From the NCBI RefSeq assembly GCF_947623445.1, contig NC_135246.1, positions 19,774,288-19,838,287 of the forward strand: a stretch of DNA of 64,000 bases, in the 5' to 3' direction. The DNA is from Clavelina lepadiformis. Lineage: Eukaryota; Chordata; Ascidiacea; Aplousobranchia; Clavelinidae. Both the position numbers and the translations under genes were made by a program. The notes below the pieces were generated by a model. The model was not told where the DNA came from and searched no databases. It saw nothing but the letters and a program-made list of their open reading frames with translations. Shown here piece by piece: positions 5,962 through 63,793 of this stretch (its first letter is position 1; each line of letters starts with the position of its first letter).

Positions 5962-5979
5962 CTTCACTTGTTTATCAGT

Positions 5980-24666: not shown

Positions 24667-24679
24667 CTTCACTTGTTTA

Positions 24680-36645: not shown

Positions 36646-37493
36646 ATGGATTTGTTTGACAAAGCACACTCAGGTTCTTATCTGAAGATGTATTTGATCA
36701 TGTTCGTGTTATTTGCGTTGATCATGTCTTCGAACGGAAGGAAGAGAAGTCTCAATTATCGGTGAGTATCTCAGTGTTAAATGTACGACATTTACTCGAA
36801 ATCATGCTTATTTCATAGGGCTTGTAAATGACGATACTTTGCCTTGTAGGGTGATCAAAGCTTGCCGGGGATTGATCAACATCAAATGCAAATATTTGAC
36901 TCGCTATTGCAGAACGAGAAGTTTGTTCAAGCGAGATATTGGCAACAAGCAAGGTAAGATTTTACAAATTGCTTTATTTTTGAATAACTGCTATAAGTTA
37001 CGTATAGGCGACTGAAAATTACATGGCATTGAAAACCTTTTAGATTCGTTAGCAACACCTAATTGTTACAAAATAAGTTAAACTATGATGATCGACAAAT
37101 CGACATACACAAATATGTTGCTGTTGCACATAATATGAGATTTTGTTACTCAGAAAACTAAGTCATAATAATTTTAACGATTGACAAATATGTTTGATCA
37201 GGTGTATTGTAAAGCTGCCGAAACATGAAAAGAGATCTAGATAGACATGCAACTATATTTAAACCATCAGTTAACACTTTACTGCGCCCAGTGCATGTCC
37301 ACGCTAAGAAGATTTGGCAGTTCAAGTATTTTCCGTATCAGTTCCATTAAATCAAATTTGTGTTTTAGAAGAATCTTCAGAAGAATTTTCAGAAGAAGAT
37401 AAAAACCGCACAAAAAAGTCACCAGCTGGCTTTATCATAAAACGCGTGAGATTTCGTGTGACCTGCGACCTTTGCAGGAAGTTCTGTTGGTGA
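36646..37493 (+). CDS. Small cationic Cys-rich secreted proprotein, B1
   Basis: Exons 36,646-36,761, 36,850-36,953 and 37,369-37,493 (345 nt, 114 aa), all with GT-AG introns and consistent phases. The product opens MDLFDKAHSGSYLK and then MYLIMFVLFALIMSSNG, a signal peptide. After GRKR comes a basic segment with three Cys (ACRGLINIKC and YLTRYC), then FKR, an acidic propiece EESSEEFSEED, then RTKK and the C-terminal RVRFRVTCDLCRKFCW. The layout (signal, cationic parts, acidic spacer, dibasic sites, six Cys) resembles antimicrobial-peptide or hormone precursors. I recognise no family. Relative to B2 and B3 the last site is KK instead of KR and one residue after NYR is Val instead of Ser. Confidence 0.75.
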
Positions 37494-38307
37494 AAGAGAT
37501 GCCAAAAGCAAAACTTCAACAAAATCTACCAAACATACATACATACAAACAAACCGTCATTACATACAAACTGTCATTTTAGACATTTTGCTGCAAAATA
37601 TCCGATGAAAAGTTGCTTATTAAAACCAAATGCTTTGCTTAATTACCTGCCTTAACTTAAACTTGAAATATGTTAACTTCAACTTAACAATCATCTTTCC
37701 TTTCTTTGTCAATAACTTTGTTGAATCTTTAAAGTGTTGATGAAATTTTGCTATTGTCTGTTATTAGTTATTACTTGATCTAATTCTATTCCTGTTGCTA
37801 CTAAACTTCGTTTTGAAATACAAATTTGCATTCGCCATATTATCAATTTTTATCTGACTAGTTTACGAAAATAAATCCAAATAATTTCCAATGACAAATT
37901 AAAACATTAAAATCGCCATAGCTGTTAGAAATGCTTATGTTTATCTTGTGAAAATGTTTTTAAGTATTTATGTGAAAGTGGTGTTTTATTTGCGAATTTT
38001 TTTGCCGATTTCACACTTGTACGGTCAGTCAATAACAGAACAATTTGCTGAATCATTGTTGTAAATGTTTTCTAAAACCTGGGTTCAGATAAATAAGTAA
38101 CACTCGACTTTATGACATCATCAAAGCGAGTAGCTTATAATCGTACTTTTTCGTCTTTCCAGCGATTCTTAAATGAAAGGTTGGCTCAGTAATTTGAGAA
38201 ACTGATTTCATGCTAGATCACATCTTACATGCCAAGCTACGAAAAAAATATTTTGTTGAAAGGAACATTACACAATTCACCAACCATGATCACCTCGTTG
38301 CTTAAAC

Positions 38308-39109
38308 CAGTGGTTCCCAAACTATGGAACGCGTACCACTAGTGGTACGCGAAGGTCTTCCAGGTGGTACGCGAGCAACTTTTCAAGTTCACACCAAACG
38401 ATCGCAAATGATCTTTTATTTTCGTCGGCATTATTTTAATTCACATAAATTAGGGAGAGCGTGAAATTTCATGCCATGTTCCCTACTGAATACTAATTCC
38501 TTAGGGTTATGACGCATTGGATTGTAAAACGGGAAATTCTTTGTGACGAAATAGAACGTCATTTATTACTACGTAATAAATCCTTGAAGTCAGTTTTTGT
38601 AATACGTTAGTTGTGCTGTAGCACTGTAGCGAGGGCGGTAAAAGTTCGACTAATTTTGTTTAATATTCACGAGCCTTTAGTAACATGTCAGAACGAAAGT
38701 ATAGCCCGGACTATATGAAGTACGGGTTCATAGCTATCGAACATGGAGGAGAGTCTCTGCCGCAGTGTGTAGTATGCATATGCATTACTTTCAGCGACTT
38801 GGCGAGAACGTGAAGGGGCAACGTCTGGACATGACTTTCGATGCGCTGTCAGCAAAGTTATTCCTCGCATCGACCAACGGGTTGAGATAAAACAACTTCA
38901 TCCATCTCATTAAAATCGTGTTGTGTTTTTTTTAATTTCATCTTCAGGGTTTTAAGTATCCCATTCAATGGTATTCATTAAACATTTTGCCTTTCATTTT
39001 TTATTTGTGAATTCTGGAGTTTTGTCGGATCACCTACAATGTAGGTGGTACAAGAACGCTGCATGAACCAAAAAATGGTACGCAAGTAGATAAAGTTTGG
39101 GAACCACTG
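38308..39109 (+). mobile_element. hAT element (Charlie/ZBED5-like), internally deleted, perfect TSD
   Basis: TIRs CAGTGGTTCCCAAAC and GTTTGGGAACCACTG bound 802 bp, flanked by GCTTAAAC at 38,300-38,307 and 39,110-39,117. The plus strand keeps two ends of a transposase: MSERKYSPDYMKYGF with PQCVVC (about 38,685-38,777), like the N-terminus of ZBED5-type hAT proteins, and a short C-terminal stretch ending QLHPSH-stop (about 38,840-38,910). The centre of the transposase is missing, so this is a deletion derivative. The empty site is preserved in the tail repeats at about 31,478 and 50,309. Confidence 0.88.
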
Positions 39110-39931
39110 GCTTAAACTTATGAAATGCAAAGCAACTTTGTCTTCGCAGACGTTATATAATGATGAGTCAGCAAGGCACAAACAACAAAGTCGTCCACAA
39201 ACATATGAAATTGCATTGCTACACTATCCGGCCTGCCAGCGTTGTGTCAGTTGTCAGGTTAATACAAAACAATCACCACTGATAACACTAAATGACCAAA
39301 CCTTATACGTTTTGTTAAGTTACTTGTAAGTCATTTTTTTAAATTTCCAACTTAAAATTTGAAATGAAAGCATTGCGAAAGCGGAGAGAGCCAGAAAAGA
39401 AGAGTTTAGCGTGAAATTTTGTTGTTGTCAGACAGACAAGCGGATCATCGTAGTAAAAATGTTCTTATTACAGTAGTGAAAAACACCTTATTTATCTACC
39501 TACACTGTTTTTGTTGGAACTAGCGGCGGGAGTTTCCGTAAAAGAGACAACCGATGTGAATTTTTATAAACCACACATTTACACAAACCATCGATTTAAT
39601 GGTAGTACTTGTGTTTATATTATATCTATGACACGAACACAAACCAAGTGATAAAATGAATTTTTTTGTGATTTAGTAGTAAAATACTGCATTTTATTAG
39701 ATTTATTTATTGCTTTGATTTAGTTAAAACATTTTTTTGATTAGTGTCATCAAAACTAAATGTATGGAACAACATTTATTTCAAAATAACAAAAAAGAGC
39801 TTTTCTTTTACTAAAAAGTCAACTTGTTACTTTGGAATCTATGATTAAATATCTCACATAGCAACATTAAACGCTCTGATATTATTGAAATAGGTAATTG
39901 CTGGATGTTTTGCTTTGTTGGACGCTTAGGC

Positions 39932-40282
39932 CAGATGTGGGCAGTCGGTAATGTAAAAGTACCGTCGGTAACGGTACCGGTACTTGGCAAAAAATCTACC
40001 GATGGTTCCGGTCTTTCGGTACTATCTAAAAAAAGTAAAAATCGATACTTTGTTGGTACTCGGTACCGGTACTTTTAGTGTAAAAGATGCTGCTGAAAAT
40101 ACATTATTTGCCGCTAATATGCCCTCGGTGAAAGTTACTCCAGGTCAACACATATGTGAAGTTATTCGCTTATATTTTTACTTGAAAAAAGTAATTCGGT
40201 ACAAAGATTGGGTACTATGTTCAAACGTACCGATGGTACCGGTGTTGGTACTGTAAAAGTACCGCGGTACTGCCCAACTATG
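39932..40282. mobile_element. hAT MITE, GGTACC-rich, shortened copy
   Basis: Same termini and same GCTTAGGC target duplication (39,924-39,931 and 40,283-40,290) as the element at 32,332, about 150 bp shorter. It is in the equivalent position of the tail repeat, so it was copied with the repeat. Confidence 0.85.
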
Positions 40283-40445
40283 GCTTAGGCCTATGTTATC
40301 GGTATGTGCAAGTCAGGCAACTAGGCCTAACGAATAGTTTAATAGCAAGTCAGGCTGACTTGGCTATCTTTGTGTTGACATCTACCCATAACACGTGCTG
40401 TTGTCTACTTTCAACATAGCGAAGGAACAAATATCGTTACGCCAC

Positions 40446-42545
40446 TGGCACAAATATCTGCTTCAGACAATCTGGTTTGGCATAGAAAGGTTTTCTCAGT
40501 AGTTTGAGAAACTGATTTAATGCTAACTCACATCTTACATGCCATGCTGTGAAAACAATATCTTTTCGTTAGATTACATTACACAATTTACCAACCATGA
40601 TCACCTCGTTGCTTAAAAATATGAAATGCAAAGTAACAAGTGATTGACAACTATCTAAAATTTTTGTCTTCGCAGACGTTATATAATGATGAGTCAGCAA
40701 GGCACAAGGATAAGCGGAGGTTTTCAGCGGAGGTTTTCGTTTTTTTCAGGTTTTCAGCGTTTTCAGGAGCGGAGGTACAGTAGCTCGGTACCGGTACTTT
40801 TTGTGTAAAAGATGCTGCTGTAAATGCAATGTTTGCTGCTATTATGCCGTTGGTGAAGGTTACTCCAGGTCAAAACATATGTGACGTTAATCGCTTGCAA
40901 ATTTACTTGACATTTTTAGATTAAAGAAGATCAACAGATGCTGAAATTAATGTTAAAGACTAATTAACGTGTATTTTTGAAAATATACTTGTTAAAATTT
41001 TGAAATTATCACATGAAAAGTACCGAGTACCGGGACCGACTAAAATTTCTTAAAAAAAGTAATTCGGTACAGAGTCTGTACCGAATTAGAGCTTCGGTAC
41101 TATTTTAGAAAGTACCAACGGTATCGGTAAGTATCAGTAAGGTACTTACTTACCGATACCGATAAGTACCGCGGTAGAGTAATTCGGTATTATACGAGCC
41201 GCGGCACTGCCTGCCTTACCTTATACTTTTGTATTCCAACCCAAGTGTATAAACCTGGTTATAGATAACTAATATACCCAGAAGGTGTCGCTACCTAACA
41301 ATCAAAAAACAAAAAAAATATAAAATGAAATGAGCAAAAAACTATTTTATTTTCATAATGGTTGGTATCGTCCAATCATACGCTCAAGGCTAATTGACTT
41401 ATCTTGTAGCAACCACGCCAACCTACAAGCTACAGTATGAGTTAGTGCTTTTCTAAACGCAAAGTTTAAGTTGATTCTAATTTGCTTTTCACTTCATCTT
41501 CAAAGCGAGAAGCTTTCACTGCACTCAGTTGTAAACCTGCTTCATGAAAGCTCGGTCACAACTTGCTGATCATTTTTTGCAAGAAAATTTTTATAGCAGG
41601 TTTCCCACTAAAATTGCCTTTTTTCTTCTCGGCTAAACAAAAAAAACTTCTTAGAAATGTTGTTTTGAGGTGAGAAATGTTCATTGAGCCGGAAAGTCTA
41701 TTTTTAGGTTTTAAAAGAAGAATAAAAGCAGGCTACGAAATTAATGCCGGGGTGTCTTTCGTCATTAAAATTATCATATAATACTTATTGTTATATTTTT
41801 AATATATTTAATTAAATTTTTAATTACATAACAACTTAAAATCGGCTTCTCCGTTAACAATTCTTCTCATTTAAGTTGGGAATATATTTAGGAAATATTT
41901 AGGTGGCGTTGCCAATAGCACAGTGATGCAAATGTCAACAGTATCAATGCAAATCTTTTTGTTTTGACGTTTCTGCCGACCTTACAATTTATGACTGATC
42001 GTGATTCTGCATTTGTGTGCACGTTCCAACTAACTCACGCCGTGCTGTCGTGAGGTGAAGTGAGGTGGTGAACACATACTGACTAGACTTAATTTGAAAT
42101 TCGCTTTCATAAAGCAACGATGGAAAGATTTTATAAATACAAATACAATTTTACAAAAGATATTTGTTTTTCAGTATACATTTAAACACTGTTTCATGTC
42201 TCTGGATAGAGCTAGAAAAAAGACAGAATATATGTGGAAAATCTGGCAAAGTTAATGTATCGACGTTTCTCTTTCTACCTGAAAGCCTTGGCAAATTTTG
42301 AAAACTTGATGGAGGATTTAGTCTTAACAATATCAATTACGTTTTTGAGTGAGATCATAAATGCGCCGTGGTTTCATTATTTTATGAAAAAAAGCGAGAT
42401 TTGCTTTATAAAAGCAGAAGGAGCAAGTGGAAGTTTCTGCTGGATGACTCATTTATATAGAACAACATGCATGCATGAATATATGACGTCATAATATAAT
42501 ACGCCAGTATTGATATATTTCTCTGAGGAGAGCCACTTGACGTAC
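40446..42545. other. Mosaic of repeat pieces from both clusters
   Basis: About 40,490-40,710 repeats a piece of the tail. About 40,783-41,215 is a GGTACC MITE fragment and about 41,341-41,600 matches 1,780-2,030 of the discoidin cluster. The remainder is AT-rich with no gene recognised. It leads into an isolated discoidin exon. Confidence 0.6.
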
Positions 42546-42689
42546 GTTGCTTCCATGGATGAGGAGTCCAAGGAGAACCTCGATCCAATCTTCCTTTATG
42601 AGCGGCACAAATTTGCAAGTAGTATGACGACGCGGTCACCTCATCATTTTGCGCTTTCCCACTTTTCACACCAGCCAAGCATACTTCCT
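42546..42689 (-). pseudogene. Isolated discoidin exon 2
   Basis: A single open exon of 144 nt encoding EEVCLAGVKSGKAQNDE and a distinct loop (YYLQICAAHKGRLDRG), with acceptor and GTACGT donor sites. Exons 3 and 4 are absent; only traces of the following intron are seen. It lies 12 kb outside the main discoidin array, inside the peptide cluster, and is the most divergent exon 2 in the window. Confidence 0.7.
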
Positions 42690-43214
42690 CTGTGAAATGT
42701 AAATATCAAGTTGCTGAAATATTCCTAAATGTGGGGAATTCCCAAAATCTATGATGAAACCAAAACGTAATTTAACACAGAACAGACGGTACCACAGCTA
42801 TTGGTGCGACGGGTTAATTAATTTGAGTCAAAGATTACTTTCGAGTATCAAACTACTCAACAACCGCGCCTTAACGCGTCAATCGGTCTTACAAATAGCT
42901 TATAATGAACGCTAATACGTTCTATGGGAAATATGAAACATATTAGATATGTATTGTAAAGGTGATAAACATTAGACAAGTCCACGGTGCAAACGATGAA
43001 TGACTAAGATAACAATATATAAAAATCGTCATAAAGGTCAATAACGCAAACTTTATCGTGGTCTCATATCACTTCGCTTTCACGTTCACTGAAAATTCCA
43101 ACTATCCACGAATAGAAGTTTGCGTTGGTTGATGCTTGTCGTTTATCACAGATTAGTGACTTGTATTGAAAAGGCTCAAGCTTGTTTGGAAAATCGAAAT
43201 TTAATCACTTACTG
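42690..43214. other. Interval with intron-1 trace, no gene seen
   Basis: The first 60 bp match the start of discoidin intron 1. The rest is unique AT-rich DNA with nothing recognised. Confidence 0.5.
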
Positions 43215-44393
43215 ATTTTGATGTGGTCTTCGATTTTGCCAAGAAATATGACACAAAATCCTCATATGGTTGATATCATTTAGTGGCTGATATCTAACAC
43301 TTGTCATCCCGCTAGTGGGCGATTGAGTGCTATGTTTGCCTGTGAAAAAGTGCTTTCCTGATAAACACAAATAACGTGGGGCGTTATTTAATTATTTATT
43401 GTTCGGTATTTGTTTAATTTCACGGCCACATACGAAATCTTTGTGACATAACAAAACAAACCTGACGTCAGTCGTCCTCTAAGCACAAGCCACATAATGT
43501 TATATGCGAGTTTACTTTTTGTTCTTGTTTATCAAATTGTTTCATATTCAGTTCTCTTCATTTAAAAAAAATATAACTGATCGTGGTTGACCACGGTTTG
43601 GTGACCTCTGAATAATGATGAATAAATTATTTCATCCCTCGCCTTCTCATGTCTGCTAACAAACGGTTAAATCAAAGTTCTAGATTGCACTGTACTTTGT
43701 GTTCAGGATTGTTCCAGTCTTGCAGATTTTGGGAAACTGAAGTTCAGGTGATTGTTAAATAGTTTTAGCTCGATGAGTCTTCTCCTTTCGCTGATTCTAG
43801 TGTTGAATATCTTTCACATCAATCAAAAAAATGTATGTTGAATTTTTGGTTTAGCTTTCCGGAACATTAAAGTCGAATGTCGAAATAGTTCTCTTGGAGT
43901 TTATTTACAAGCTTGGTATGTAGATACATGATATGCAGCTTACAAGTGGAAGTCAAGCGGTTAATGCGACCAAGAACTGGGCATGTCAAATCGTAGACAA
44001 AGTGCGGTGGTTTAGTTTGTTTTATTTCTTGTGCTAATTGGATTGACGCAAGTTAAGCGAAACCACAAAACTTCATTTGAAACATGATTTCCTCGGAGAA
44101 CCGAAGAAATAATTGACAGAATATTGTCTAGAAATGAAAGTGGCTGCGTGGTTTATAGATTTACTTTAAGGTTGTTATAGAAATCACATATTCAGCAACT
44201 GAGTGTGCTTTTAAAATGATTGCGTTGATGCTAATTAACTAAATTTCATTTCAATTAATTCTATAAAAACAATTAAAACACGAACAGGCTTCCAGCTACG
44301 GTATTTTTATTGTAATTTCGAAAACACTAATAATATTTCTCAAAGAAATGCTGCTCGTCTTCAAATGATCTCAATTTATGACGTCTCTATTCG
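43215..44393. repeat. Peptide-cluster 'head' repeat, copy 2
   Basis: Uninterrupted partner of 33,053-33,527 plus 35,699-36,180. It shows the intact target site (GTAGATACATG, about 43,919) into which the LTR fossil inserted in copy 1. Confidence 0.8.
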
Positions 44394-46001
44394 TACGATT
44401 TCTTTGCAACTGCTGGCGCATCGCGGTTTCGTAGGACACGCAAAATGAATGTTACGTTCGATGCAGACTGAAGTACAGGGTGGGCATAAAAGCTACAAAC
44501 TCATAAAGTGCCAAATTATATATTTTTTTCAACTGAATCATTAAAGCGTCATGTTGCCAACCAAGCAAGAACATTTTGTACTAAAGCTATTTCCAAGTGG
44601 TAAATATGTTTAAAAGCTTTCCCTTGTCGATGATAGAAAGGGCCGCATTATTGCGTCTGTAACCAAATGGCGAGCGGCGATGTAAAAAAATCCACTATGA
44701 CGTCATATTGTTAATTGCAAGCAAAATTACTTCTTAAAAAGTGAGATGATATTTATCATTTATGTTAACAAAGTATTTAACCCTAAAATATTTTAGAGAT
44801 AAATTTATTCCAGCTTACAACAAAAGTTGCACATTTCAGTTGTTGGACGCAGCTCAAACAATCTTGCTCCAACTCTTTTTCTTTCATCGCTTCATGATTA
44901 ACAATTCAGTTTTTTTCTAACAACTGAAACTGCTAAGCGGTAATGAGCACGATAAATTTTCCAAGTTCTAGTTTGACGGCAAGCAAACGCGGGAACCAAT
45001 ACAAGAGCTAATATCTGCGGTGGTGGGGCCTGTTGCCGATTTCAATCAACGACTTGACGAAATGTGCAAGTGTGAGTATTTGCTTAATACAATAATGAAC
45101 TCCATTTTCAACTTTTTAAACTTCTATAAAAATTTGCAAGCCGCTGTATTCAAATTAGTCTAAAATCACGATACCGGGATTTTCCTAGTACACTGAATTT
45201 TTTGAATGGTTCAGATAAATGTCTCTCATATCTTATGTTTGCAATTATTTGTATGCGTAGTGAAACAAACCATGGTTTCAAAAAGTCAGATAAATAGGTG
45301 GTAGTCCTGTTTTATTGCTTCATATTTTAATTTCGCACAATTTCTGATTATAGCTTATACGTCCCGACAGATCGAAATTACTGCAACTTAGAATGCCATC
45401 AGGAAGTGTTTGACCAACCTGCCGACTAAGCAAACCCGACCCTTTAAACAACGTGTTGGAATCCCGGGTAAATATACGAAAGTGAGATAGAGAGAAACCG
45501 ACGAATAAATGAACCTGAAATACCACAAGTACACCAACTAAAACATTGCCCTGGCTTAGCCCGTAAGTAAATGCGGTGGCGTTTTAAATCCAAGCTGTGT
45601 AAATAAAACCTTGTTGTGTTAAGCCGATTGTTTCTGTTCTAGTTTTTCCGCTTTAACGTCCACTCATTGAACCGCAAATTGCTTCCTCAACATACGTTCC
45701 TAATCATATCTATCTGTAAAAGAGTAAGACAAACAAATAATTACAAACGATAAGCATCTAAAAAGTGAATAAACAGTTTAATAATATATTGAAACATTCA
45801 GACAAAAATACTTTAATACATATACAGACAGATGCATTTTTTGGCAGTTGCATAAAGAGACTTAAGGCGAGGGCGCAAAAATAAGTGGCTTTAAATGAAA
45901 GAGGAGTTGTGTGAGCGACGAACCGCCATCGGATGTCGGCGTGCCGCTCTACCGCAAGCCAACAACTTGTTCACCCGCCATCACCTAATCATAAACCTTC
46001 A
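44394..46001. other. Unique interval upstream of A1
   Basis: No repeat partner was found for most of it. About 44,975-45,075 on the plus strand reads as coding-like sequence (IQELISAVVGPVADFNQRLD), bounded by no clear splice sites and of unknown origin. The minus-strand frame at 45,320-45,526 is not recognised. About 45,890-46,001 matches the sequence before A2 at 62,645-62,757. Confidence 0.45.
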
Positions 46002-46195
46002 ATGAAAAATTTAAAAGTGACAAATCTTCTATCGAAATTATTCCTGCTGTTTGCATTGTCAACCATAACCATTATTCTTCTATTGTCTGCTATATACAGT
46101 TGTGGAAATGGTGACTTTGATCTTGCTCAAATATTATCCGTATCGTTTGGGGGTTTCCAGCGTAAACGTGGAACGAATAAAATTAACTATAAATA

Positions 46196-47034
46196 CAGTG
46201 AGACCTCGTTAATCCGGACCACTTCGTTTCGTCAAAAAATGTCGGTTTAGCGGGGTATCCGGATTATCGGAAAGTAAAAAATCAATCAATCTTGCAAATG
46301 CAGTACCGTGTTAAAAATGCAGTATGCACCTTACTTCAATTCTAAGTACCGAGTTTCTGGCTGGACAGCAACTAAAATAACATTATATTTTTTGTATGAT
46401 CCGATCCAGTGTCGAACCCCAGAACCACCGTATTAAAGACGAATGCTCTAAGCCAGAAGTGACGAACATGCGGCCGCAAATCGGTTTGACAACCGCTCTT
46501 GCATGGCGAAGCATTCCGGCGGGACCAGCAGTCTTAAACTTTCTCTGACCTGTTTCAAATCTTTGCGCAATGCGATATCAAAAGCTGATAGCACGATTGA
46601 GTTGCAGCAGTATGTCTTCAATAGACTGCCGCTCTCAACCGATATACTGTACGTATTTTTTTGCGACCGCGGAAGCGTTGTTTGTTACTGTTGATGAACA
46701 ACGCAACGTTATTATGAACAACGAACAACGTTGATGAACAACGCAGACCGCAACGTTATTATGCGTAGATAATCGGCTATTGTTTCGTCAACTAACTACA
46801 TAGTGTATTAGGACAATCGTGAATCATTTTCGCTTAACTGTTAATAATCCGGTTTATCGAATTTTATTGCTATTGATTTAGCACATTTGTTCCAAAACTT
46901 TTGTGTCGGAGTCGGACAGCGGGGTTTTCGGATTAAAGGGGTAAAATGCATAGGAAGAAATCCGTTCCCGGCAGTTTTGTGTCGGATAGCGGGGACTCCG
47001 GTTCATCGGGGTACGGATTAACGAGGTCTCACTG
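46196..47034. mobile_element. pogo/Tigger-like DNA transposon, TA target site
   Basis: TIRs CAGTGAGACCTCGTTAATCC and its inverted match ending GGTCTCACTG enclose 839 bp, with TA on both sides (46,194 and 47,035). The uninterrupted target is seen in A2 near 62,936. No full transposase is present; a 63-codon frame at 46,503-46,694 may be a remnant. Confidence 0.85.
46401..46455 (-). repeat. tRNA-like (SINE-type) fragment
   Basis: On the minus strand TGGCTTAGAGCATTCG resembles an A box with a shortened D arm, and GGGGTTCGACACTGG a B box. Between them CGT-CTTTAAT-ACG can form an anticodon arm. Acceptor stems are missing, so this is not a working tRNA gene. Confidence 0.4.
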
Positions 47035-47603: not shown

Positions 47604-48451
47604 ATGGATTTGTTTGACAAAGCACACTCAGGTTCTTATCTGAAGATGTATTTGATCATGTTCATGTTATTTGCGTTGATCATGTCTTCGAACGGAAGGA
47701 AGAGAAGTCTCAATTACCGGTGAGTAACTCAGTGTTAAATGTACGACATTTACTCGAAATCATGTTTATTTTATGGTGTTTAAAAGTGACGATACTTTGC
47801 CTTGTAGGTCGATCAAAGCTTGCCGGGGATTGATCAACTTCAAATGCAAATACTTGACTCGCTATTGCAGAACGAGAAGTTTGTTCAAGCGAGATATTGG
47901 CAACAAGCAAGGTAAGATTTTACAAAATGCTTTATTTTTGCATAAATGTAATAAGTTACGTTTAGGCGACTAAAAAATACATGACTTTAAAATACTTTTA
48001 AGTTCGTTAACAACACCTAATTGTTATTAAATAAACTAAACTATGATGATCGACAAATCGGCATAAAGAAATTTTTTGCTGTTGCACATAATATGAGATT
48101 TTGTTACGCAGAAAACTAAGTCACAAAAAATCTTAACGATTGACAAACATGTTTGATCAAGTGTATTGTAAAGCTGCCGAAACATGACTAGAGACCTTGC
48201 TAGACATGCAACTATATTTAAACCATCAGTTAACACTTTACTGCGTCCGTGCATGTCCATGCTAAGAAGAATTGGCAGTTCAAATATTTTCCGTATCACT
48301 TCCATTAAATCAAATTTGTGTTTCAGAAGAATCGTCAGAAGAATTTTCAGAAGAAGATAAAAACCGTACAAAAAGGTCACCAGCTGGCTTTTTCATAAAA
48401 CGCGTGAGATTTCGTGTGACCTGCGACCTTTGCAGGAAATTCTGTTGGTGA
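47604..48451 (+). CDS. Small cationic Cys-rich secreted proprotein, B2
   Basis: Exons 47,604-47,719, 47,808-47,911 and 48,327-48,451 (114 aa) match B1 in length, phase and splice sites. The signal peptide is MYLIMFMLFALIMSSNG. The first basic segment reads SLNYRSIKACRGLINFKC then KYLTRYC. The acidic propiece is kept, the third processing site is RTKR, and the C-terminus is FFIKRVRFRVTCDLC then RKFCW. Conserved Cys and basic residues across three copies, with changes mostly elsewhere, argue for a real protein. TATA-like TATAAAAAT is at 47,548. A1 lies directly upstream on the same strand. Confidence 0.78.
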
Positions 48452-50367
48452 AAGAGATGCCAGAAGCAAAACTTCAGCAAAATCTATCAAGCTTACAAAC
48501 CGGCATTTTAGACATTTTGCTGCAAAATATCTGGTTAAAAGTTGCTTATTAAAAACAAATGCTTTGCTTATTTGCCTGCCTTAACGTAAATTTGAAATAT
48601 ATTAACTTCAACTTAATCGTGATCTTTCCTTTCTTTGTGAATAACTTTGTGGAATTTTTAAGGTGTTAATGAAATTTTGCTATTGCCTGTTATTATTTGA
48701 TCTAATTCTATTCCTGTTGCTGCTAAACTTAGTTTTGAAATACAAAATTGCATTCGCCATATTATCTATTTTTATCTGAACAGTTTATCATAATAAATCC
48801 AAATCATTTCCAATGACATATTAAAATATTAAAATCGCCATAGCTGTTAGAAATGCTTATGTTTATCTTGTGAAAATATTTTTAAGTATTTATGTGAAAG
48901 CGGTGTTTTATTTGCGAATTTCTTTGCCGATTTCACGTTTGTACGGTCTATCAATAATAGAACAATTTGCTAAATCACTGTTGTAAAGATTTTTTAGAAT
49001 CTGGGTTCAGCTAAAAGATTAACACTTGACTTTATGACATCATCAAAACCTGTAGCGTATATAGCATTTAGTTGACCACATGAAACAAAAACAACTAAAC
49101 CACAACATATTGATACAAATATAAAAGCAATACAAGTCATTGAATATGTGTGAATATTTGAAGCAATTTTCATTGCAACTATTATTATCAAAAACGTTTT
49201 AAACAAAACTTTTTTTCATATACTTTAAAATTTCACTGGTATTTTTGGTGTTATCATATTAATAAGTCAAGCATGAGTAACAAAAATATTACAAATAATT
49301 TTAAATCTTTTTTTACTGTAAATTTAAGCAACAAATACGCCAATTGTTTTTCACTCTGTAAATTAGGCGCGTAAACCAAAGCCGGCTTCTGAAGTAAAAA
49401 CACTCTTTGCTTTATCCGGTCAGTCTCTTGCACTATTGAGTTATTAGGAAGATTAAAACGGTAACATTTTTCATTTTGTCAAGTTCAATGTGGTTTGCTT
49501 GTGTGTGTTGTGTTAGCATAAATCGCTATGGTGGCAACATAAGCAAAATGAAGGTTCGGGTCAACAATTTCGACTTAAAGACGAGCGAGAGCTTGACAAA
49601 GTAATAAATGCCCAGCTCAGTGTACAAATGACAAAAGTCGAAAGAAATGTTACTTACCCATATAACTGAATGTTAATGGCCAACTAAAATGCTTTATTTT
49701 GTCTTATCTCCGGTATGCTTAGGATTTGATTGAAAGGTATTCGGAGTAAACATGACTAAGGTGCAAACTAATCAAAGTCAAACATGACTTTGATCGTCAT
49801 TGAGCATTATTTGGTAATCACCGAAGCCAAATAACAAAATTGGTTTTGTCTTAATCCAATTAGTTTCAAATTACTGTAACTTTGAAGATCATCAAAAAGT
49901 GGCCAACCTGTCAATGAAGCAAATCTAAATCAGACAAAGTTTAAGTTATATTCCTCGGATAGGGTTACAAAAGTCAATTAGCAGAAATATATAAGTCAAT
50001 TAACAAATGACCTGAAAAACCGATTATCCCCCAGCTAACCAAGATTGACCGAGAAGACCGGAGAAAATTGGCCTAGTGTACCAAGAAAAAAATTTTCACC
50101 TCATTATGGGTAAAATGTTCCTACTAATACCTTCTCTTTCCCACGTTCGAAATTTGTCATCTTTCCAGCGAGTCTAACTAGAAAGGTTGGCTCAGTAATT
50201 TGAGAAACTGCTTTCATGCTAAATTTCATCTTAAATGCCATGCTGTAAAAACAATATCTTGTGGTTAGATTACATTACACAATGCACCAACTATGATCAC
50301 CACGTTCGCTTAAAGTTATGAAATGCAAAGCAACACGTGATTGACAACTATCCAAAATTTTTTCTTG

Positions 50368-53824: not shown

Positions 53825-56800
53825 ATGAGTGATTTTAAAGATGAAATAAAAGCTGAACTGGACGCACTTTCTGACTCGTCTTTGCAAGATGATGATGATG
53901 ATCTTCCGATCAATATTCATGAGGATGAAGAAATAAAAGAAAAAACAAGAAGTGAAGGTATAGAGATTAACCATAGTGTTTTACTGTTTTGTTTTGAAGA
54001 TAACTTTGTCTCATTTAGGTTTTCCTGTGGATCAGACTGCGGAGTTTGGCATAGGTACACTTAATACTGTTTTTCGTGAGCTACAGTGGCACACTTTAAG
54101 TGCATTATTTTGCCCTTAATGATTTGGACAGAGCTTCTGTGCACTCTGTTTTCAATAGGTTTAGAGAATAAATAAGTCAAACTGCTTACACTACTGTGTA
54201 ATTGAACACCTAAGTACGCACTTCCATTACGTCCGAACATTTTTGCACACCTGCTCTTGTCAGTTTTAGTTGTTTGGCACACACAAGATCTTGCTGAAAA
54301 TGAGCATGTATGTGTGCAAAGTTACAGAACACCCAAACTTTGATGATGTAAAAACGTAACAATTACATAAAAAGTTTAAAACATGTCTAAATGTTGTTCG
54401 TATTATCTCAATGCCTATATATCATACGTATGTGAAATTTAGACAACCAAGATTGGATTCTACTTTTCCTTGAAAAAACCTCAGCACAATCTAAGAAGAC
54501 GGAAGATATTCTTTTCAATGCTGAGGAAGTTCTGAAAGAGGTGATCAGTTACTTTTCAATAAGTTGCTTTGCTTAGATTTAAATTATATTAAGAAAATAG
54601 CATGATACGTTGTCTAATAAAGTAGCAAAGTAAAAGCAAGTCTTCCAGTTCAAAAGAGAGTTAATTTGATAATGATGACAATTTAAGTCAAACTGCTTAC
54701 ATCATATGGTGCCGATAACATTAGATTATTAGACATTATTATTAGACATTAGAACATTAGAAATCAGGATAATCTGTCAATGATGTGGAATGTAGAAGAT
54801 CATGAATGAAACGAACGACTTAAGAGTCTCGGATTTCTTTTTTGTAGGTTGAGGAAAATGTGACGCGCTGCCATTCGAGATTGTCCTCTGTGAATGACAA
54901 AGAACTAATTGAAGTTGAAAACGTGGCCATTGTTGATGAGAATGAAACGTCAATCACTGAAGGTGAGATTGCAAGCTTAATCCTGTTTATTTTACGTTGA
55001 GGACATCACTATAAAGACTGATTGCAAATGTCTGACCTGAACATTGCTTTAAAGTGAGGTGAAGGAAATGCTGAAATTGGTTGACGTTAAGCCTAAAGAA
55101 TAATTGTCAGTAGGTATACCAGAGAAAGAAAGCTTTGGTAATACTTGATATATATCATAATTAAGCAATTATAACAAATATGTGTTGCAAATTATTGCTA
55201 GCTGTGACATAGGTGGTAGTAATTATGACATCACATTGTAAAATGCATGGCACTGGTGTCTGGAATAGCAAATATGAATAGAATGTATCATGTGTGTAGT
55301 CGATAAAATATATAAGTTATAGTTTATACTTAAGTGTCTGCCAGGAATAATTTGCGTTAGATGTAATCAACTTACAGCTGGTGTATTTATATCAACTGGA
55401 GAGCTAGTGAGTTTTCAAAATGGCATCTGTTGCATGAATTACTTTTCTAGAACTTCATTCATTTGTTGAAGAAAGTGAAGATCTTCTCATTGAACCAACA
55501 ACATCAAGAACATCTGTCTTAGATGAAGAGGTCCTTGATCATTGTCTTGATGCTGGGAACCAAAATTCAGTTGATAACTTTCATGAAATGAATCAAAGAG
55601 AAACGCTTGACCACAAAGAACAGAAGAATCAAGTGTTTGATTTTAAGCAACAAAAAATTGAAAGTGATCGAAGGATGAAGGTAAAAATACTGTCTTATAA
55701 AAATCTGCAAATTCTGCCATTTAATATGTCGTGTAGTTTTATCTACAAGGATAGAGCCTGAGTGTTTCCTTTACAACTCTCGGCTTCCTTTAGCAGCCAA
55801 TCGACTCAGATTTTATTATTGAAGTAAAACGCTGAATCTTCCAGAAGTTCCAGGCATCTTTCTATGAGGAAGTTGCTCTTCGAATGGACGACATCGAGTC
55901 TGAGAGTGTCGCATCCCATCAACATCTCACTGCGCTGGAGGAAGCAGAAAGTAAAATATTGTCCGAGCTCAAGAAACAACAAAAGTTTTTTGAAGAACAG
56001 CGCACCAATGAAGCAGCCACCTTGATTCAGGTTGCCTTGCTTATAACATTCCTGCTTAATTGCAAATGTTATGTTTCATTGCTCTTTTTGTGATTTCACA
56101 AGAAGCATTATTGTTCTTGTCATGCTTTTCCAGTGCCACTTTCGAGGGTATCAGTCAAGGAGAATGTACGCCGGCATCTTGCACAATAGATTGACAAATT
56201 TGCGTCAAAAGCAGAGAGAGCAGCGAATTCGTGAGATAGAGGAACGTCGGATGGCCGAGAGACAAGTAGAACAGCCCACTTCCAATTCGGATCATTTTAA
56301 AAATAAAATCAAACTTCAAGATGACCCAGAAAACATTCCAATGGTCACTGATGATGTTGCCTGCAATGATGTCACTATGGATTCAGACCCGAGCAAACCT
56401 AGAGAAGGTGATCATAAAACAGAAACTCATGTTATTACAACGAGAGAAGATGCGGATGATGGCAGCACAGCCAAAGAACCCAACCTCAACTTAAAGCTTT
56501 CAAAGCAAGATGTGCATCAATCAGGAAGTCTCACATCAGATGCAGGTGATGAGCTCAAGGAAAGCAAACTTGAACAATCTGACTCTGGTGGAAAGAAGGA
56601 TCCGATATTGTCACTGAATGAGTCGCCACTTAAAAGAACAAACGGTGAGAAAGATCACCGTCCACATTGTGAGGATGGTTTGCTGCAGATGATAGCACAG
56701 GATGTGGCCGTGTTAGAGAAAAGTGTTTCCTTCTCAAAAAATTCCAAAATCAATCAACGAGGAAATGAAAAGTTTTCTTCTGCTAAAATTCAAGAGAAAG

Positions 56801-58114
56801 CACAAGAAAGTGTAGTCACTGGTCATGAAGGAAACTCTTATCAAGTCGGACAACAGGTTGGCTTGATACAGAATACTTTGGATCATGACTTGAGCATATT
56901 GGAGTCATCAGTACAACTCTCTCCTCCAAAAGCATTGGGAAGTCAATCATCCCTGACACTAGCAGATCACTCGATCTTAAGCGACTCTATCGCTTGTGAC
57001 TCGCCTCTGCCAGGCAAAGTCCAGACTGAGTGGAGGAAAGAAATAAAAAATGAAATAAGTTTCATCACAGAAAAAGAAACAGAGCTCGGTCCATCGTTTC
57101 AACAAATAGATTTGAGTGTTTCCCATCTATGCCGACCTAGCAATGAAAATCCTCCAAAACCTGCAACATCTTTATCAACTGGTGGCAATGATCCTGATAA
57201 ATCTCATCCAGGAAAACATAAAGTGCAAGAATCAGTTCCTTGCTTGGACTCATCATCAGCTATCAAAGTAGTCATTGAAGACCACCAAGAGAACAACGAG
57301 ACGTCGAAAAAATGTCCAGATGACAATGCAGAATTATTAACTGAATTATCAAGCTCACCACCCATCAAAGCACATGATGATGAAGTTCAAGTCATCGTTT
57401 GTCAAGAGACAAGCGAGCCAATTCCAGAGGAGACTGAAGATGTGTTCACTCAGGATTCCCATCGAACTCCTTCGATTCCAGGTTGGATTTTAAATGAAGA
57501 CAGTTCGCTGGACAATGTTGTGATGATTCATCCAAATATGGTTGAAGCTGAGCTCAAAGAACAGACTGTTTTATTGGAAGACACAAAACCTGAGAGTCCA
57601 TTACCATCCAGCCATGACAATTCGTTAAAGTCCATCTCCTTAGGTTCATCTCTAACACAGACCGATAACTCTAGCGATGTTCCCAGTGTTGTTGTTAAAC
57701 CTGTTATTGCTCACGATGGAGATTGCAACATGACACGACCAGGTGAAGATGATGGAATAACTTCCATGCAAGGTAATGTGAAGGAAGAGGTTGCATTGGA
57801 TGACCACAAAAATTTCACTGATCACATCGATGAAGAAAATGTTAGATCACCAATAAACAGCCATCATCACCCAATCTCCTCTTCAGTTGAGTCAGAGATC
57901 ATTGCAGAGGACTCCTGGAAGAAAGTCCCACAAGATCGTTCCAAGCACGAATGTCCTGATATTGCAGTGATGTGGGAGACATGGAGGAATAAATACCAGA
58001 GATGGCAAGATGCGAGATCTGAAGTGGTCGTCAAACCTCATCTACGATGGACAATTCGAAAGTCCTCTGCCGCAAAAAGGATGCACCCGATAACAGATGA
58101 TGAGATAGTTAATG
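53825..58114 (+). CDS. LRRIQ1-like: LRRIQ1-like IQ-motif protein, N-terminal half
   Basis: Proposed exons 53,825-53,957, 54,019-54,054, 54,443-54,540, 54,848-54,962, 55,451-55,680, 55,845-56,030 and 56,134-58,114; phases agree and about 926 codons are open. The N-terminus (IKAELDALSDSSLQ, then an Asp run) resembles vertebrate LRRIQ1. A charged coiled coil leads to a split IQ motif: AATLIQ at the end of exon 6, then CHFRGYQSRRMYAG. A basic helix and a long acidic, Ser-rich low-complexity region follow. The end (MWETWRNKYQRW, then RKSSAAKRMHPITDDE) resembles the stretch just before the leucine-rich repeats. A GTAAGT donor at 58,115 implies further exons, but no LRR exon is in the window. The small 36-nt exon 2 and the GTGATC donor of exon 3 are the weakest parts. 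Confidence 0.72.
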
Positions 58115-58151
58115 GTAAGTTAGCAGTTATTGACAGGTCATTACTTTAGGA

Positions 58152-58471
58152 CAGGCATGCACAACATGCGGCCCACGAGATATTCCGTGATTTCGCTCAT
58201 TCAGGCATTTTCTCCACGGTTACAGTTACATAATCAACGAATCCGATGCTTTACCGCCGCTAAGCGTTAAAAACAACTAGATACTGTAGTGCGAGAGGCA
58301 ACCGTCTCTTGACAGTAACCATCTTCTCAACGATATCTCTTATTCAACGGTTAATCGGTCACATTATATAAAGTAGGCTACACGTTAGTTACAACAACGT
58401 TAGCACGCGGCCCGCGAAAAATATTTTTTCGCTAAAACGGCCCGTGTACTGTTTTGAGTTGTGCATGCCTG
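58152..58471. mobile_element. hAT-like MITE with perfect 8-bp TSD
   Basis: Ends CAGGCATGCACAAC and GTTGTGCATGCCTG are perfect inverted repeats of 14 bp, flanked by CTTTAGGA at 58,144-58,151 and 58,472-58,479. It is 320 bp, lies 37 bp after the last recognised exon donor of the LRRIQ1-like gene, and carries inverted GCGGCCC blocks. Confidence 0.9.
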
Positions 58472-58535
58472 CTTTAGGATGACATGACAGAGATTTTTAC
58501 TTTTGACTACATCATGCACTTCTGGACTCTTCGGT

Positions 58536-61500
58536 TTCCAATTGGCCTGCGCCCTCGTCCATAAAGGATTTAAGGCAGTTTTTGGGACTCGCATCATACT
58601 ATCGCAAGTTTGTCAGAGATTTTGCCAACATTGCAGCCCCACTGTACGATTTGACGAAATCTCAAAAAAAAGTTCTGTTGGAATGGTAACTGTTTACACT
58701 CATTCAACTTGTTGAAAAACGCATTCGTAACAAACCCGGTATTGAGATACCCGGACTTTACGCAGCAGTTCATCCTCGATACAGATACTTCATATTCTTC
58801 GCTTGGCTGTGTTTTGTCACAGATTGTAGATGGTGAAGAGCACCCAGTTTCATACGCAAGTAGATCTCGAACGAAAGCAGAAAGAAATTATTCCACCACG
58901 AGAAAGGAACTCCTGGCAATTGTTTTTGGGGTGTAGAAATTTCGTTGTTATCTTGGCACACCTTTTCTTCTTCGCACGGACCATGCTTTGTTACGGTGGC
59001 TGTGGACAGCAAAAGAGACATACGGTCAATGGGCGCGCTGGTTTGAAATATTGGTTGATTTTGATTTTAAATTAATACATCGCTCTGAATCAAAGCACTC
59101 CAATGCAGACGCACTTAGTAGAAGGCCACAGAGCAGCAAAACAAGTGATTCTAATAGCGTCGAATTGAATCCTGTCAAGATCCGTTTCAAATTGAATAAA
59201 ACTTTAAAACCGGTAAAACCTCGACGGAAAGTGTTTTAAGTATTGTTCTTCGTGAGGGTTTCAGTTGGAATCCTGATCAAATTTCACAAGCTCAAAAGTC
59301 CGACGAACATCTTTTCGTAGTACTAGGTTGGATTAGAGCCGGCGCAAGACCCCCTTTTAAGAAAATTTAGAAGTTGAGCAGTGAGCTTCGACATTACTGG
59401 TCTTTGTTTGGAGAGTTTTTTTTAGTACACCAGTGCTTTTACCACAATCTGGAAGACACATTAGAAGGAAAACGCCTTCAGTTGCTGGTTCCTAAAGAAA
59501 TGCGTCCGAGAGTCCTGAAAGAGTTTCATGACGCATCACATGGAGGTGGACATATTAGTGTTGATAGAACAGCTGAAAGAGTTTCAAGACGATTTTACTG
59601 GCCCCGCTGGAAAACGGATGTCCGTGAGTATTGTGAGAGTTGCACACTCTGTGATTTACGTAAAGCTCCTTCTAGAACAGCGTGGTCCAACTTCTTTTCA
59701 TCGCGGGCCAAAATCTGAAATTTTTTTATCTTGCGGGCCAATGTTTTTAAATTAGAACTGAAGAACAATGTGACATTGATATTAGAACTGAAAAAAGTTC
59801 TCTTTTTTATTAAAACTGAAATTAGAATAGTTTAAAATTTAGCTGATAAAATTTAAATGCTGATCGATGTGACATCTGCGGTCGAGGTTCTTCCTCGACA
59901 ATAGCGACTATCAAAGCTGACTATCAGTTCGCGGGCCACCTTTGGTCCGCGGGCCTGCAGTTGGACCACGCTGTTCTAGAACGTCAAGAGCGCCCTTGGT
60001 ACCTTCCGATGAGTTGGTGTCGTTGCAAAGAATAGAGATTGACGTCCTGGGAGGACTTCCTGTGACACATTCAGGTAACCGTTACATACTGGTAGCCACT
60101 GATATGTACACTAAATATATGCAGGCTTGGTCAATGGCATCACAGTCAGCCCAAGAAAAGGCATTTGTTCTCTATCATAATTGGATGACGATTCATGGTG
60201 TTCCGGAGCGTATTCACAGCGATCGAGGAGAAACTTTTGAGAGCCAGTTGTTTAAAGAGCTTATTGATCTTCTCGGCTGCAAGAAATCAAGAACCACAGC
60301 ATACCACCCTTCTGGGAACGGAGCGGTTGAAAGGGCCAACAGAACAATCCTTTCCATCATGCAGAATTATGTTCAGCGCGATCCACTATCCTGGGATAAA
60401 TCCCTCTTCCCAATTTGTTCAACCTATAACGCCAGCCGACACGAAGAGACAGGTGTTTCTCCACATTTCCTTCTGACAGGACGAGAATTGATGTTACCAG
60501 CAGATTTGATGACTAGACAACCTTCGAGTCATCCATCATCGTCGGCAATGTTCCATTTACAAGACCGCATGCCGCTTGTTCACGAAGTCGTGAAAGCAAG
60601 ACTCGAACAACGTCGGCAATCCATGAATGCACGTTACGACAAGTCGGTATCGAGACAAGTGGAGTTTCAAATAGGAGACAAGGTCATGCTGCGAAACACT
60701 GTCACATCAAAAGATGAAAAGCGAAAGTTTCACCTCCTTTATTCAGGTCCCTACGAAGTTGTTGAGACTTTTCCGCCCGTAAATTATCTCATTCGCAATC
60801 ATGAACGGACGTTAAGAGTACATTTTAACAGGCTAAAGCTAAGCAGAGGAGACCGTCATACAGGGATGCCTTCCTATAGTCAAGCTAGTCGCCCAGAAGA
60901 AGTCCCCCAGCAATTGGACATGCCCTTGACTGGAGCTTAGTTTTTTAATAACCGATCAAATGCAAATCGCCACGAGAGTAACAATTTTAATAACGTTTGT
61001 AACTTCCGAAATAACGGTCGACTTCGCCGAAGTCCACGTTGACCTATTCGTTACCCAGACGTCGAAACGTATTAATTGTGTATTTGTGTGATGCTTAATT
61101 TTTATGATTTGCGTTTTAAATACAACAGTTTCAAGTATGATGGTATTTTTTTTCGGATCCGTTTATATACGACCTATTTTACAGTAGCTATCAATCTCAC
61201 GTTTTTTTGTGGTTTTATTAGCATGAAGCGTGATTTGTAACCCACCGATACTTTTTATTGTGTTTGTGTTATTGTATTGGTATAGACATGTTTACATTAA
61301 TTGCATAGAAATGCTGTGCCTTGATTTTCGTTTGTTTTGATTGGTGTGATAATCATAATTTTTGTCACTAGTACACCATTTTGCTGTGTAAGAATCGTTT
61401 TTGTAAACCTTTTTTTTATGTGGCCCACTATAACATACGTAGACGAAAAATTTTTCTTCAAAATTCACGAATTCATCTGGGTAACAGAAGTAATAGCGGT

Positions 61501-61838
61501 TGCTTCGTGATTATATTGCAGTTTGTCTTTATATTTACCATATACTTAGCTTATAGCCAGTTATGCTGATTGATGTTCAAGCAATGTCGAAGCGAAATTT
61601 ATTGGAGTGGGAGGAGTGTTACGTTGTTTTCTGCTTGGTTTGACGTGCCTTTGTATTTTCTGCCTTCGGTCAGAAGTACTGATAAATGTGATTACGCCTT
61701 GCCCGTTGTCGAACGAGTGAACAGACTACTGATGCCTGTACTGCTGTGTAGACGTGCCTACTTTATACCGTTTTGAAATGCAATCCTATAGTTAATTGTA
61801 GGTCTCTTCGAACCAGCAGTAGAAAAACGCAGGTAACA
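58536..61838 (+). mobile_element. Ty3/gypsy-type LTR retrotransposon, broken fossil
   Basis: Parts in order: the end of a reverse transcriptase and an RNase H-like stretch (about 58,536-59,240), an integrase region including the zinc-binding end and core (about 59,400-60,940), a non-coding stretch, a purine-rich tract at about 61,604-61,616, and one LTR at 61,617-61,838 that starts TGTTACGTT and ends GGTAACA. The order reverse transcriptase-RNase H-integrase and the LTR termini place it with Ty3/gypsy, and the LTR is related to that of the fossil at 33.5 kb. The 5' part is absent and there are several breaks. A hAT MITE has inserted into it. Confidence 0.85.
59678..59973. mobile_element. hAT-like MITE nested in the gypsy fossil
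   Basis: Perfect 15-bp inverted ends, CAGCGTGGTCCAACT and AGTTGGACCACGCTG, enclose 296 bp. They are flanked by TTCTAGAA at 59,670-59,677 and 59,974-59,981. It is younger than the host element. Inner GCGGGCC blocks resemble those of the elements at 6,605 and 58,152. Confidence 0.9.
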
Positions 61839-62115
61839 TGTTTACCGCACCGATAACTTGTCTAGCTGGAAAGTGCTAGTATGAGTAATCACAAGTTTAA
61901 ATGGTAGGATGTCGGATACATTAACAAGTGAAACGATGAAGCGTCATCAGTTGAATCAAAACAGAGTGACAAATGTCAGATTTCCAGCCAGCAAGCAGCT
62001 CCTCTGTTGTGCTCATCAACAACGGAGCGCCAGACGATTGACAAAGAGCTACGAACGATAGTCATTTATTCGTCTGTAACTTTCCGGGACGGAAAGAATG
62101 TACGATGTGGGGAGA
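61839..62115. other. Short interval between two LTR remnants
   Basis: Nothing recognised. It does not continue the LRRIQ1-like gene. Confidence 0.5.
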
Positions 62116-62603
62116 TGTGACGGGATTATTTCTACACACTTGTTTTAAGAAGCACTGCACATTGATACGTTTTTAGTTGTTTAGTTAGATGTATTTCCCA
62201 CAACATGTTTTTATATTTATATTAAGATGTATTTCGCACGTATTGTTGTGGCCATAATGTGTGACGGCGTTTTTATATAGTATTAGTCATCGATATGTCA
62301 CTTGTGAATCCGTTTATTGTTAGTAAGTTTTCTACACGTGTACACGGTTTACGCCTTTACCCACAACTCCCCCCGAGGTATGTTACGCTTCCCGCAATTT
62401 CCAATCTCACACCCTAATGATAATTAATTGATTACGCTGTGTTTTGTTGGAAAAGAGTTTTTTGGTCATTACATTTGGTTTTAATGCAAGAAAGACGTTT
62501 ATTTCTATTAAAGGAATGCTCATAAAAGATAAGAGAGCAGAAACCGGCTAATCGACAAGTCGTAAAAGCGGGAGGTTTCCTGGCCAAGAAAATCTTGGTT
62601 ACA
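62116..62603. mobile_element. LTR-like repeat, second copy (fossil)
   Basis: From about 62,155 to 62,603 the sequence matches the solo LTR at 19,925-20,442, including GCACTGCACATTGATACG and the end near GGTTACA. The left end is less certain and no clear target duplication is seen here. Confidence 0.6.
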
Positions 62604-62789
62604 TACTGTACTATAAGTTATATATAATTACTATAACTTAGAGAGAGGGGTGAACGAAGAACCGCCATGGGCTGTTGCTGCAAACCAACAACCTTTTCAC
62701 CCACCATCACGTACAATTATAATTACCACAATTATACAGGGTCCATGTAAAATTGGAAAGTGGCAAATCTTCTATCGAAATTAGTTTTG

Positions 62790-63026
62790 ATGTTTGCATT
62801 GTCAACCATAACCATTATTCTTCTATTGTCTGCTATATACAGTTGTGGAAATGGTGAATTTGATCCGGGACAATTCTTATCCGTATCGTTTGGGGGTTTC
62901 CAGCGTAAACGTGGAACGAATAAAATTAACTATAAATTTAGTGGTTTGAGGTTTTGTTACAATATTGATTGTGGTAGTTTATGGTCGTATGTTGGTTATT
63001 GGTTGTGTGATTTGTGGTTTGTGTAG
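62790..63026 (+). CDS. Small secreted proprotein A2
   Basis: From the ATG at 62,790 the frame encodes 78 aa: a signal peptide MFALSTITIILLLSAIYS, a short propiece CGNGEFDPGQFLSVSFGGFQ, an RKR processing site, then a tail GTNKINYKFSGLRFCYNIDC, then GSLWSYVGYWLCDLWFV. The ATG aligned with the A1 start (62,750) is followed at once by TAA, so the downstream Met was chosen; the frame is open further up through a GTG at 62,760. The tail is rich in Trp, Tyr and Cys but its DNA is T/G-rich, so its coding status is less sure than that of the signal and RKR parts. B3 starts 460 bp downstream. No known family recognised. Confidence 0.55.
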   Translation: MFALSTITIILLLSAIYSCGNGEFDPGQFLSVSFGGFQRKRGTNKINYKFSGLRFCYNIDCGSLWSYVGYWLCDLWFV

Positions 63027-63485
63027 TTGTTTGTAGTCCACAATAGAAAAATTAGTTTAGTAATCTACTTACACTTATTGAACTTTCATGATTAACATTT
63101 GTGGCGAATTTAACTCTTTACCATTTTGTTGAGTTCATTTTCGTCAAAAATATTTCAGGTTAAAAATCGAAATTTACAGCAGAAGAATTAGAAATGTTGT
63201 TTTTATGACGTTGTTGTAGTTAAAAACATTCACAATGCCTCAAGATAATACTCATGTAACGAAAGTTTAAAAAATATTCTCGAAAGTTTTTTTGACATGT
63301 TTTGAACCACTGCAAGCCAATGGCATCCTACCCCGCGAAAAGATAGCAAAAAAAAAATACGTTTTTCAAAAATTTTTTGTGCCCTTAAAAACGAAAACAG
63401 TTTGAGCAAGTTCTTATTTCATTTTAGTTCACGAAGTTATAAAATTATTCGTTTCCTGGTTCCGGGAATATAAAATCATTTTGCG

Positions 63486-63793
63486 ATGGATTTGTTTGAC
63501 AAAGCACACTCAGGTTCTTATCTGAAGATGTATTTGATCATCTTCATGTTATTTGCGTTGATCATGTCTTCGAACGGAAGGAAGAGAAGTCTCAATTACC
63601 GGTGAGTATCTCAGTGTTAAATGTACGACATTTACTCGAAATCATGTTTATTTTATGGTGTTTAAAAGTGACGATACTTTGCCTTGTAGGTCGATCAAAG
63701 CTTGCCGGGGATTGATCAACATCAAATGCAAATACTTGACTCGCTATTGCAGAACGAGAAGTTTGTTCAAGCGAGATATTGGCAACAAGCAAG
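63486..63793 (+). CDS. Small cationic Cys-rich secreted proprotein, B3 (last exon outside window)
   Basis: Exon 1 at 63,486-63,601 and exon 2 at 63,690-63,793 match B1 and B2 in length and phase. The signal peptide differs by one residue in the core (LIIFML). Exon 2 encodes SIKACRGLINIKC, YLTRYC and SLFKRDIGNKQ. By the 415-bp intron of B1 and B2, exon 3 should begin near 64,209, beyond the window. TATAAAATT at 63,438 and TTCCGGGAA at 63,460 repeat the B promoter pattern. Confidence 0.72.

Follow-up and report, generated by a model that had tools for sequence, protein, structure and literature searches.

What does the small three-exon gene that recurs in a repeat-rich stretch of the genome of the ascidian Clavelina lepadiformis encode, and what might its product do? 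The gene, here called gene B, was noticed in a window of 64,000 nucleotides (NC_135246.1; C7:19774288-19838287, forward strand), and its relatives were sought throughout the assembly, which comprises 209.06 Mb in 95 contigs. We count at least nine members, namely four in a tandem array on C7 (B1-B4) and five divergent paralogs outside it on three chromosomes (C3; C7a and C7b; C4a and C4b). They are intact three-exon genes under purifying selection. Our preferred reading, to which we give slightly less than an even chance, is that gene B belongs to an expanded family whose secreted prepropeptides are processed to two chains and serve in host defense.

The three exons of B1 (116, 104 and 125 nt; all features of the array are on the forward strand) splice in frame across GT..AG borders into a product of 114 residues with six cysteines. 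Exon 1 (36646..36761) runs from the ATG through a hydrophobic leader and an RKR sequence to a GT donor in phase 2, the leader suggesting a signal peptide, removal of which would accompany secretion. Exon 2 (36850..36953), bounded by an AG acceptor and a GT donor, encodes the first Cys block, C-X7-C-X6-C-X6-KR, which is ungapped in all nine members, and the KR codons (36929..36934, residues 66-67) mark the first proposed cleavage site. Exon 3 (37369..37493) encodes an acidic spacer, the basic sites and the terminal C-X2-C-X3-C-W-stop; a KK in the spacer (37413..37418; KR in B2-B4) is a possible processing site, and a second KR (37440..37445, residues 98-99), whose counterpart in the paralogs is basic though not KR in each, is the second proposed cleavage site. 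B2 has the same exon lengths and splice sites (47604..47719, 47808..47911 and 48327..48451), and B3 has its first two exons in the window (63486..63601 and 63690..63793) and its third, of 125 nt, just past the window end (L020:2997-3121). The sequence-only reading of this DNA had proposed this exon structure, with its splice sites and phases, and B1 and B2 bear it out in full within the window. Its count of three copies was too low: a fourth tandem copy, B4, begins approximately 3.7 kb beyond B3, outside the window, and at least five more members lie elsewhere in the genome.

The architecture is common to the whole family. In all nine members the introns are in phases 2 and 1, every exon length leaves a remainder of two when divided by three, and the product reads C-X7-C-X6-C-X6-KR, then a variable stretch, then C-X2-C-X3-C-W-stop. 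Only 10 columns of the nine-member alignment are invariant: the six cysteines, Lys51 before Cys2, the KR, which stands 7-8 residues after Cys3, and the final Trp. Both Cys blocks are ungapped and the indels between them are confined to the spacer, which gives a distance from KR to Cys4 of 33-42 residues; the leader region also contains many gaps. The cationic precursor with six cysteines divided 3+3, as first described from B1-B3, is thus a property of all nine members, the two presumed chains together carrying a net charge of +6 to +13, and the hydrophobic leader suggests that the precursor is secreted. Two other parts of that description hold for some members only. The tandem copies and C7a have a clearly acidic spacer: the most acidic 12-residue segment after the KR has a charge of -3 to -7 in B1-B4, C3 and C7a, -3 in C4b, -2 in C4a and -1 in C7b. 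As to the dibasic sites, the first KR is invariant, but the second is KR only in the tandem copies and C3.

Because B1-B4 are nearly identical, the nine members amount to approximately six independent sequences, and the manner in which the divergent ones were found matters. A protein search of the genome returned the C3 copy, 75% identical to B1 across the whole product, and two further C7 copies, one near 9.9 Mb (39%) and another near 9.6 Mb (37%). When the genome was searched for DNA encoding C-X2-C-X3-C-W and then TRR, 47 matches emerged (25+22), versus 20 (9+11) with a reversed control pattern; family members account for nine of the 47, and two of these, both on C4, were new. Since C4a and C4b were retrieved by the terminal C-X2-C-X3-CW-stop pattern itself, that motif is not independent evidence for them, but their membership is supported by an upstream exon with C-X7-C-X6-C and then KR, by a phase like that of the other members, and by a single hhalign comparison of the C4 pair with the other seven (probability 94%, E 1.3e-7), the score of which comes partly from the terminal motif. 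The exon 2 motif occurs in the window at the three gene B copies only, arose two times when 1 Mb of sequence was simulated (approximately 0.003 per 1,500 bases), and was absent from 163,620 strand-bases of 27 non-member loci. It was likewise absent from the 1,500 bases upstream of 17 non-member matches that end in a stop, and from the approximately 850-890 bases examined upstream of five more, one sequence of which ends inside the motif. Of the remaining matches, three end in a stop but have an in-frame stop inside the motif, and 13, which end in TGG rather than a stop, were not taken as candidates. The pattern search reaches only members with a terminal C-X2-C-X3-CW, and further, more divergent members may exist in the genome.

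Several comparisons show that these genes are being conserved. Between B1 and B2, 11 of 345 exon sites differ versus 51 of 502 intron sites (Fisher p 8e-5), and this relative rarity of exon differences points to more than recent duplication. For the parts within the window, B2 and B3 differ at 2 of 220 exon and 18 of 295 intron sites (p 0.002), although their first intron matches the exons in conservation (98.9% identical), and B1 and B3 differ at 6 of 220 and 17 of 295 sites, which is not significant (p 0.13). Exons are free of gaps in all three pairs, gaps being found in intron 2 (B1/B2) and the flanks. The comparison of nonsynonymous with synonymous rates (dN/dS) among copies, which had been suggested along with the original description, gave 0.20-0.45 in five of the six pairs of B copies, 0.19-0.21 for B copies versus C3, 0.26-0.36 for B versus C7a or C7b, and 0.36-1.02 for pairs among C3, C7a, C7b and C4b, these last at high dS. 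Constraint is unevenly spread along the product. Mean pairwise identity among six representative members is 0.51 in the tail, 0.41 in block 1, 0.34 in the leader, 0.25 in the stretch after the leader and 0.19 in the spacer. Similarly, pN/pS in five pairs (B1/C3, B1/C7a, B1/C7b, B2/C3 and C7a/C7b) ranges over 0.10-0.36 for the C-terminal 15 residues, 0.26-0.72 for block 1 and 0.39-1.07 for the spacer. The C4 pair has values of 0.58 for the tail, 0.94 for block 1 and 0.83 for the spacer.

An invariant KR with a rigid Cys block on one side and a variable spacer on the other has the expected look of a processing site next to a discarded piece. We therefore propose that, after removal of the leader, a proprotein convertase would cut behind the KR and again at the basic residues that precede the C-terminal block, releasing the spacer, which is acidic in the tandem copies. 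The basic N-terminal chain (approximately 31 residues in B1, three cysteines) would remain linked to the basic C-terminal chain (15 residues in B1, three cysteines, ending in Trp), since the odd number of cysteines in each chain calls for at least one interchain bridge, unless one Cys is free or the peptide dimerizes in another way; nested pairing would make all three bridges interchain. A host-defense peptide could in this manner be stored as a partly charge-neutralized precursor and, once processed, act against microbial membranes.

Three other explanations deserve to be weighed against this proposal. That the copies are decayed or unexpressed duplicates without function is highly improbable: the region is indeed repeat-rich and duplicated, and B2/B3 taken alone give a dN/dS of 1.09, on only five changes, but nine frames are intact, B1 and B2 are more conserved in exons than in introns, and comparison with the C3 copy gives a dN/dS of approximately 0.2. 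Random stops and loss of cysteines in relatives, which would have spoken for decay, were looked for among the paralogs of the same genome, and all nine keep both the frame and the six cysteines. A two-chain secreted signal (a hormone, cytokine or growth-factor-like protein) that is processed like insulin and acts on a receptor is a more serious candidate, though in our view an unlikely one. Gene B resembles the familiar insulin/relaxin-type precursors in overall logic only, with a leader and a basic chain, then a dibasic cut, a variable connecting piece and a basic site, and finally a C-terminal chain. The segment between the invariant KR and the basic second site is a possible counterpart of the connecting peptide, and interchain bridges are likely here as well. 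The invariance of Cys, KR and Trp and the strongly constrained C-terminal chain (pN/pS 0.10-0.36 in the five pairs above) also suit such a signal, and because of that constraint a receptor ligand remains a candidate. However, the insulin superfamily has two cysteines in the B-chain and CC-X3-C-X8-C in the A-chain, and gene B, with C-X7-C-X6-C and C-X2-C-X3-C in nine of nine members, lacks this 2+4 signature; its spacing also differs from the familiar patterns of alpha-, beta- and big defensins, as the sequence-only reading had held, and Pfam scans of all nine members at E<=10 reported neither Insulin nor a defensin family. Weak insulin A-chain-like places do occur elsewhere, on C1 (9594667-9594765 and 9583681-9583803, with E values of 0.037 and 0.10, short of the Pfam cut-off), and these may be the ordinary insulin-like genes of this ascidian. 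In our judgment, moreover, the very high positive charge and the tandem copies fit defense peptides better than a signal, which is why host defense is preferred.

The third alternative, which we consider doubtful, is that the product is a single uncut mini-protein with six cysteines (turgencin-like, of another antimicrobial fold, or an inhibitor) in which the KR is structural. It draws on turgencins A and B of another ascidian, Synoicum turgens, which are cationic, amidated single chains with six cysteines arranged C-X3-C-X4-C-X7/8-C-X2-C-X3-C, bonded 1-6, 2-5 and 3-4, a nested arrangement established for turgencin B by nuclear magnetic resonance (PMC7024374). Gene B shares with them the ascidian source, cationic character, number of cysteines and second triplet, but differs from their first triplet, their loop of 7-8 residues, their single amidated chain and their lack of a terminal Trp. 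C-terminal amidation needs a Gly donor. All nine gene B frames end in Cys-Trp-stop without one (for C4a and C4b this ending was the search pattern), so the family lacks the turgencin-type feature. Membership among the turgencins was rejected, the second Cys triplet agreeing but the first not, and the profile comparison giving no support (hhalign probability 5.6% over 8 columns). At odds with an uncut protein are the 33-42 residues of variable, indel-bearing spacer between the Cys blocks and the invariant KR at a fixed distance from Cys3, both of which are expected of a segment that is removed.

For the processed, two-chain host-defense peptide that we prefer, the best working parallel, by analogy, is provided by the centrocins. 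These are heterodimeric antimicrobial peptides of sea urchins, with heavy and light chains that derive from one precursor and are joined by one disulfide, a 24-residue interchain sequence being missing from the mature peptide; the chains are variable and the pro-regions conserved (PMC4805251). The features common to gene B, as proposed here, are one precursor, two cationic disulfide-linked chains and an excised interchain sequence; the single disulfide contrasts with the three cysteines in each presumed gene B chain. Halocidin and dicynthaurin of Halocynthia are disulfide-linked ascidian antimicrobial peptides, dimers with a single bridge, and their likeness to gene B, as proposed here, is one of general description. 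According to its authors' inference, botryllin, a styelin-like ascidian peptide with a mature charge of +11.2, is kept in morula cell granules in propeptide form (PMC9966394), and by analogy it shows how a strongly cationic ascidian peptide may be stored as a precursor. The St-CRPs of Synoicum turgens have a CC-C-C-CC pattern, are 18-19 residues long and are neutral (PMC13208793); they share with gene B an ascidian source and six cysteines and differ in Cys pattern, length and charge.

Several observations weigh against the host-defense proposal or parts of it. The presumed chains of gene B are constrained and the spacer is variable, which is the reverse of the centrocins and suits a receptor ligand as well. 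The weak acidity of the spacer in C7b and C4a means that charge neutralization is not general in the family, and the second cleavage site, though basic in all members, has no KR constant across them. In the C4 pair, block 1 is no more constrained than the spacer, with synonymous sites near saturation. Helical amphipathicity of the chains was not significant (alpha p >=0.14 in all nine N-terminal chains), and beta amphipathicity of the tail reached p <0.05 in one member of nine. Finally, single-sequence genome searches with the C4 products at E<=10 matched none of the B, C3 or C7 copies, but only the two C4 genes, each finding the other at E 0.09-0.13.

The designation of the family as unrecognized has stood: searches of Pfam, NCBIfam (which is built for prokaryotes) and PDB sequences gave no accepted match. 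Weak Pfam and NCBIfam matches (RNA_pol_Rpb1_4 in four members, DUF1091, GPR15L, WH_Egal, Synaptobrevin and STEVOR) had E 0.049 or worse, were below the cut-offs where these were shown, and are regarded as chance. A seven-member profile returned nine PDB sequences at E<=10, led by a radical SAM protein (E 0.0069) and then von Willebrand factor (0.41 and 0.44), while a nine-member profile returned the radical SAM protein alone (E 0.069); the alignment pairs two of the three cysteines of block 1 and was taken as chance. A scan of viral_contigs with the seven-member alignment found no relative. In the open-licence literature of PubMed Central, no paper contained the motif strings of the family, no title or abstract listed by topical searches described it, and CDLCRKFC, KCKYLTRYC and CRKFCW did not occur in the turgencin papers examined. 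We tentatively suggest, at somewhat less than even probability, that this is a previously undescribed two-chain family, processed in the style of insulin, with a 3+3 layout and three interchain disulfides, which has expanded in this ascidian and is possibly a general new tunicate scaffold. If processing occurs as outlined above, a tunicate would possess a disulfide-linked two-chain scaffold outside the insulin superfamily. In addition, nine genes with a fixed code of Cys, KR and Trp offer a clear query for transcriptomes and peptidomics and a choice between defense peptide and receptor ligand that can be tested.

The array itself is repeat-rich and duplicated, the aligned stretches around the window copies being 89.6-93.7% identical. 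An additional copy of the gene B 3' flank (30859..31486, forward strand) matches 37673-38307, its first part also matching 48602-49061; no gene B exons were found upstream of it, and it is, judging from this arrangement, a truncated array unit. Consensus matches near B1 include TATA boxes at -56 and -48 from the ATG (36590..36603) and an ATTAAA hexamer resembling a poly(A) signal (37619..37624). In the family as a whole, TATA-like consensus matches lie within 130 bases of the ATG in seven of nine members (C4a has more distant matches only and C7b none), a purine occupies -3 of the start codon in seven (the exceptions being C3 and C7b), and a poly(A)-like hexamer, again a consensus match only, follows the stop within 600 bases in all nine. 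All four tandem copies have the sequence TTCCGGGAA at -26, which the 300 bases upstream of the other five members lack.

Other elements share the window with the array. An open reading frame (ORF) with a long hydrophobic leader and RKR lies upstream of both B2 and B3 (46002-46199 and 62745-62942); its genome matches at E<=1 are those two places only, and the second copy has a stop at codon 2. Between this ORF and B2 is an insertion (46196-47034) with perfect inverted repeats of 21 bases (46196-46216 and 47014-47034), which has the look of a small DNA transposon. Between B2 and B3, at 58937-60937, lie separate ORFs for the RNase H and integrase domains of a retroelement of the long-terminal-repeat type. 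At the other end of the window, 1-6857 and 10662-17375 form a tandem duplication that is 99.6-99.9% identical, far closer than the gene B copies are to one another; a perfect 10-base tandem repeat, TAACTGTGAG, is present there in 16.4 copies (1161-1324) and in 3.4 copies in the duplicate (11822-11855). Three ORFs on the reverse strand (5557-6051, 16075-16569 and 24001-24714) encode a small protein of secreted appearance that carries a short collagen-like repeat; in the two copies scanned, Pfam Collagen fell slightly under its cut-off (E 1e-5 and 2.9e-5).

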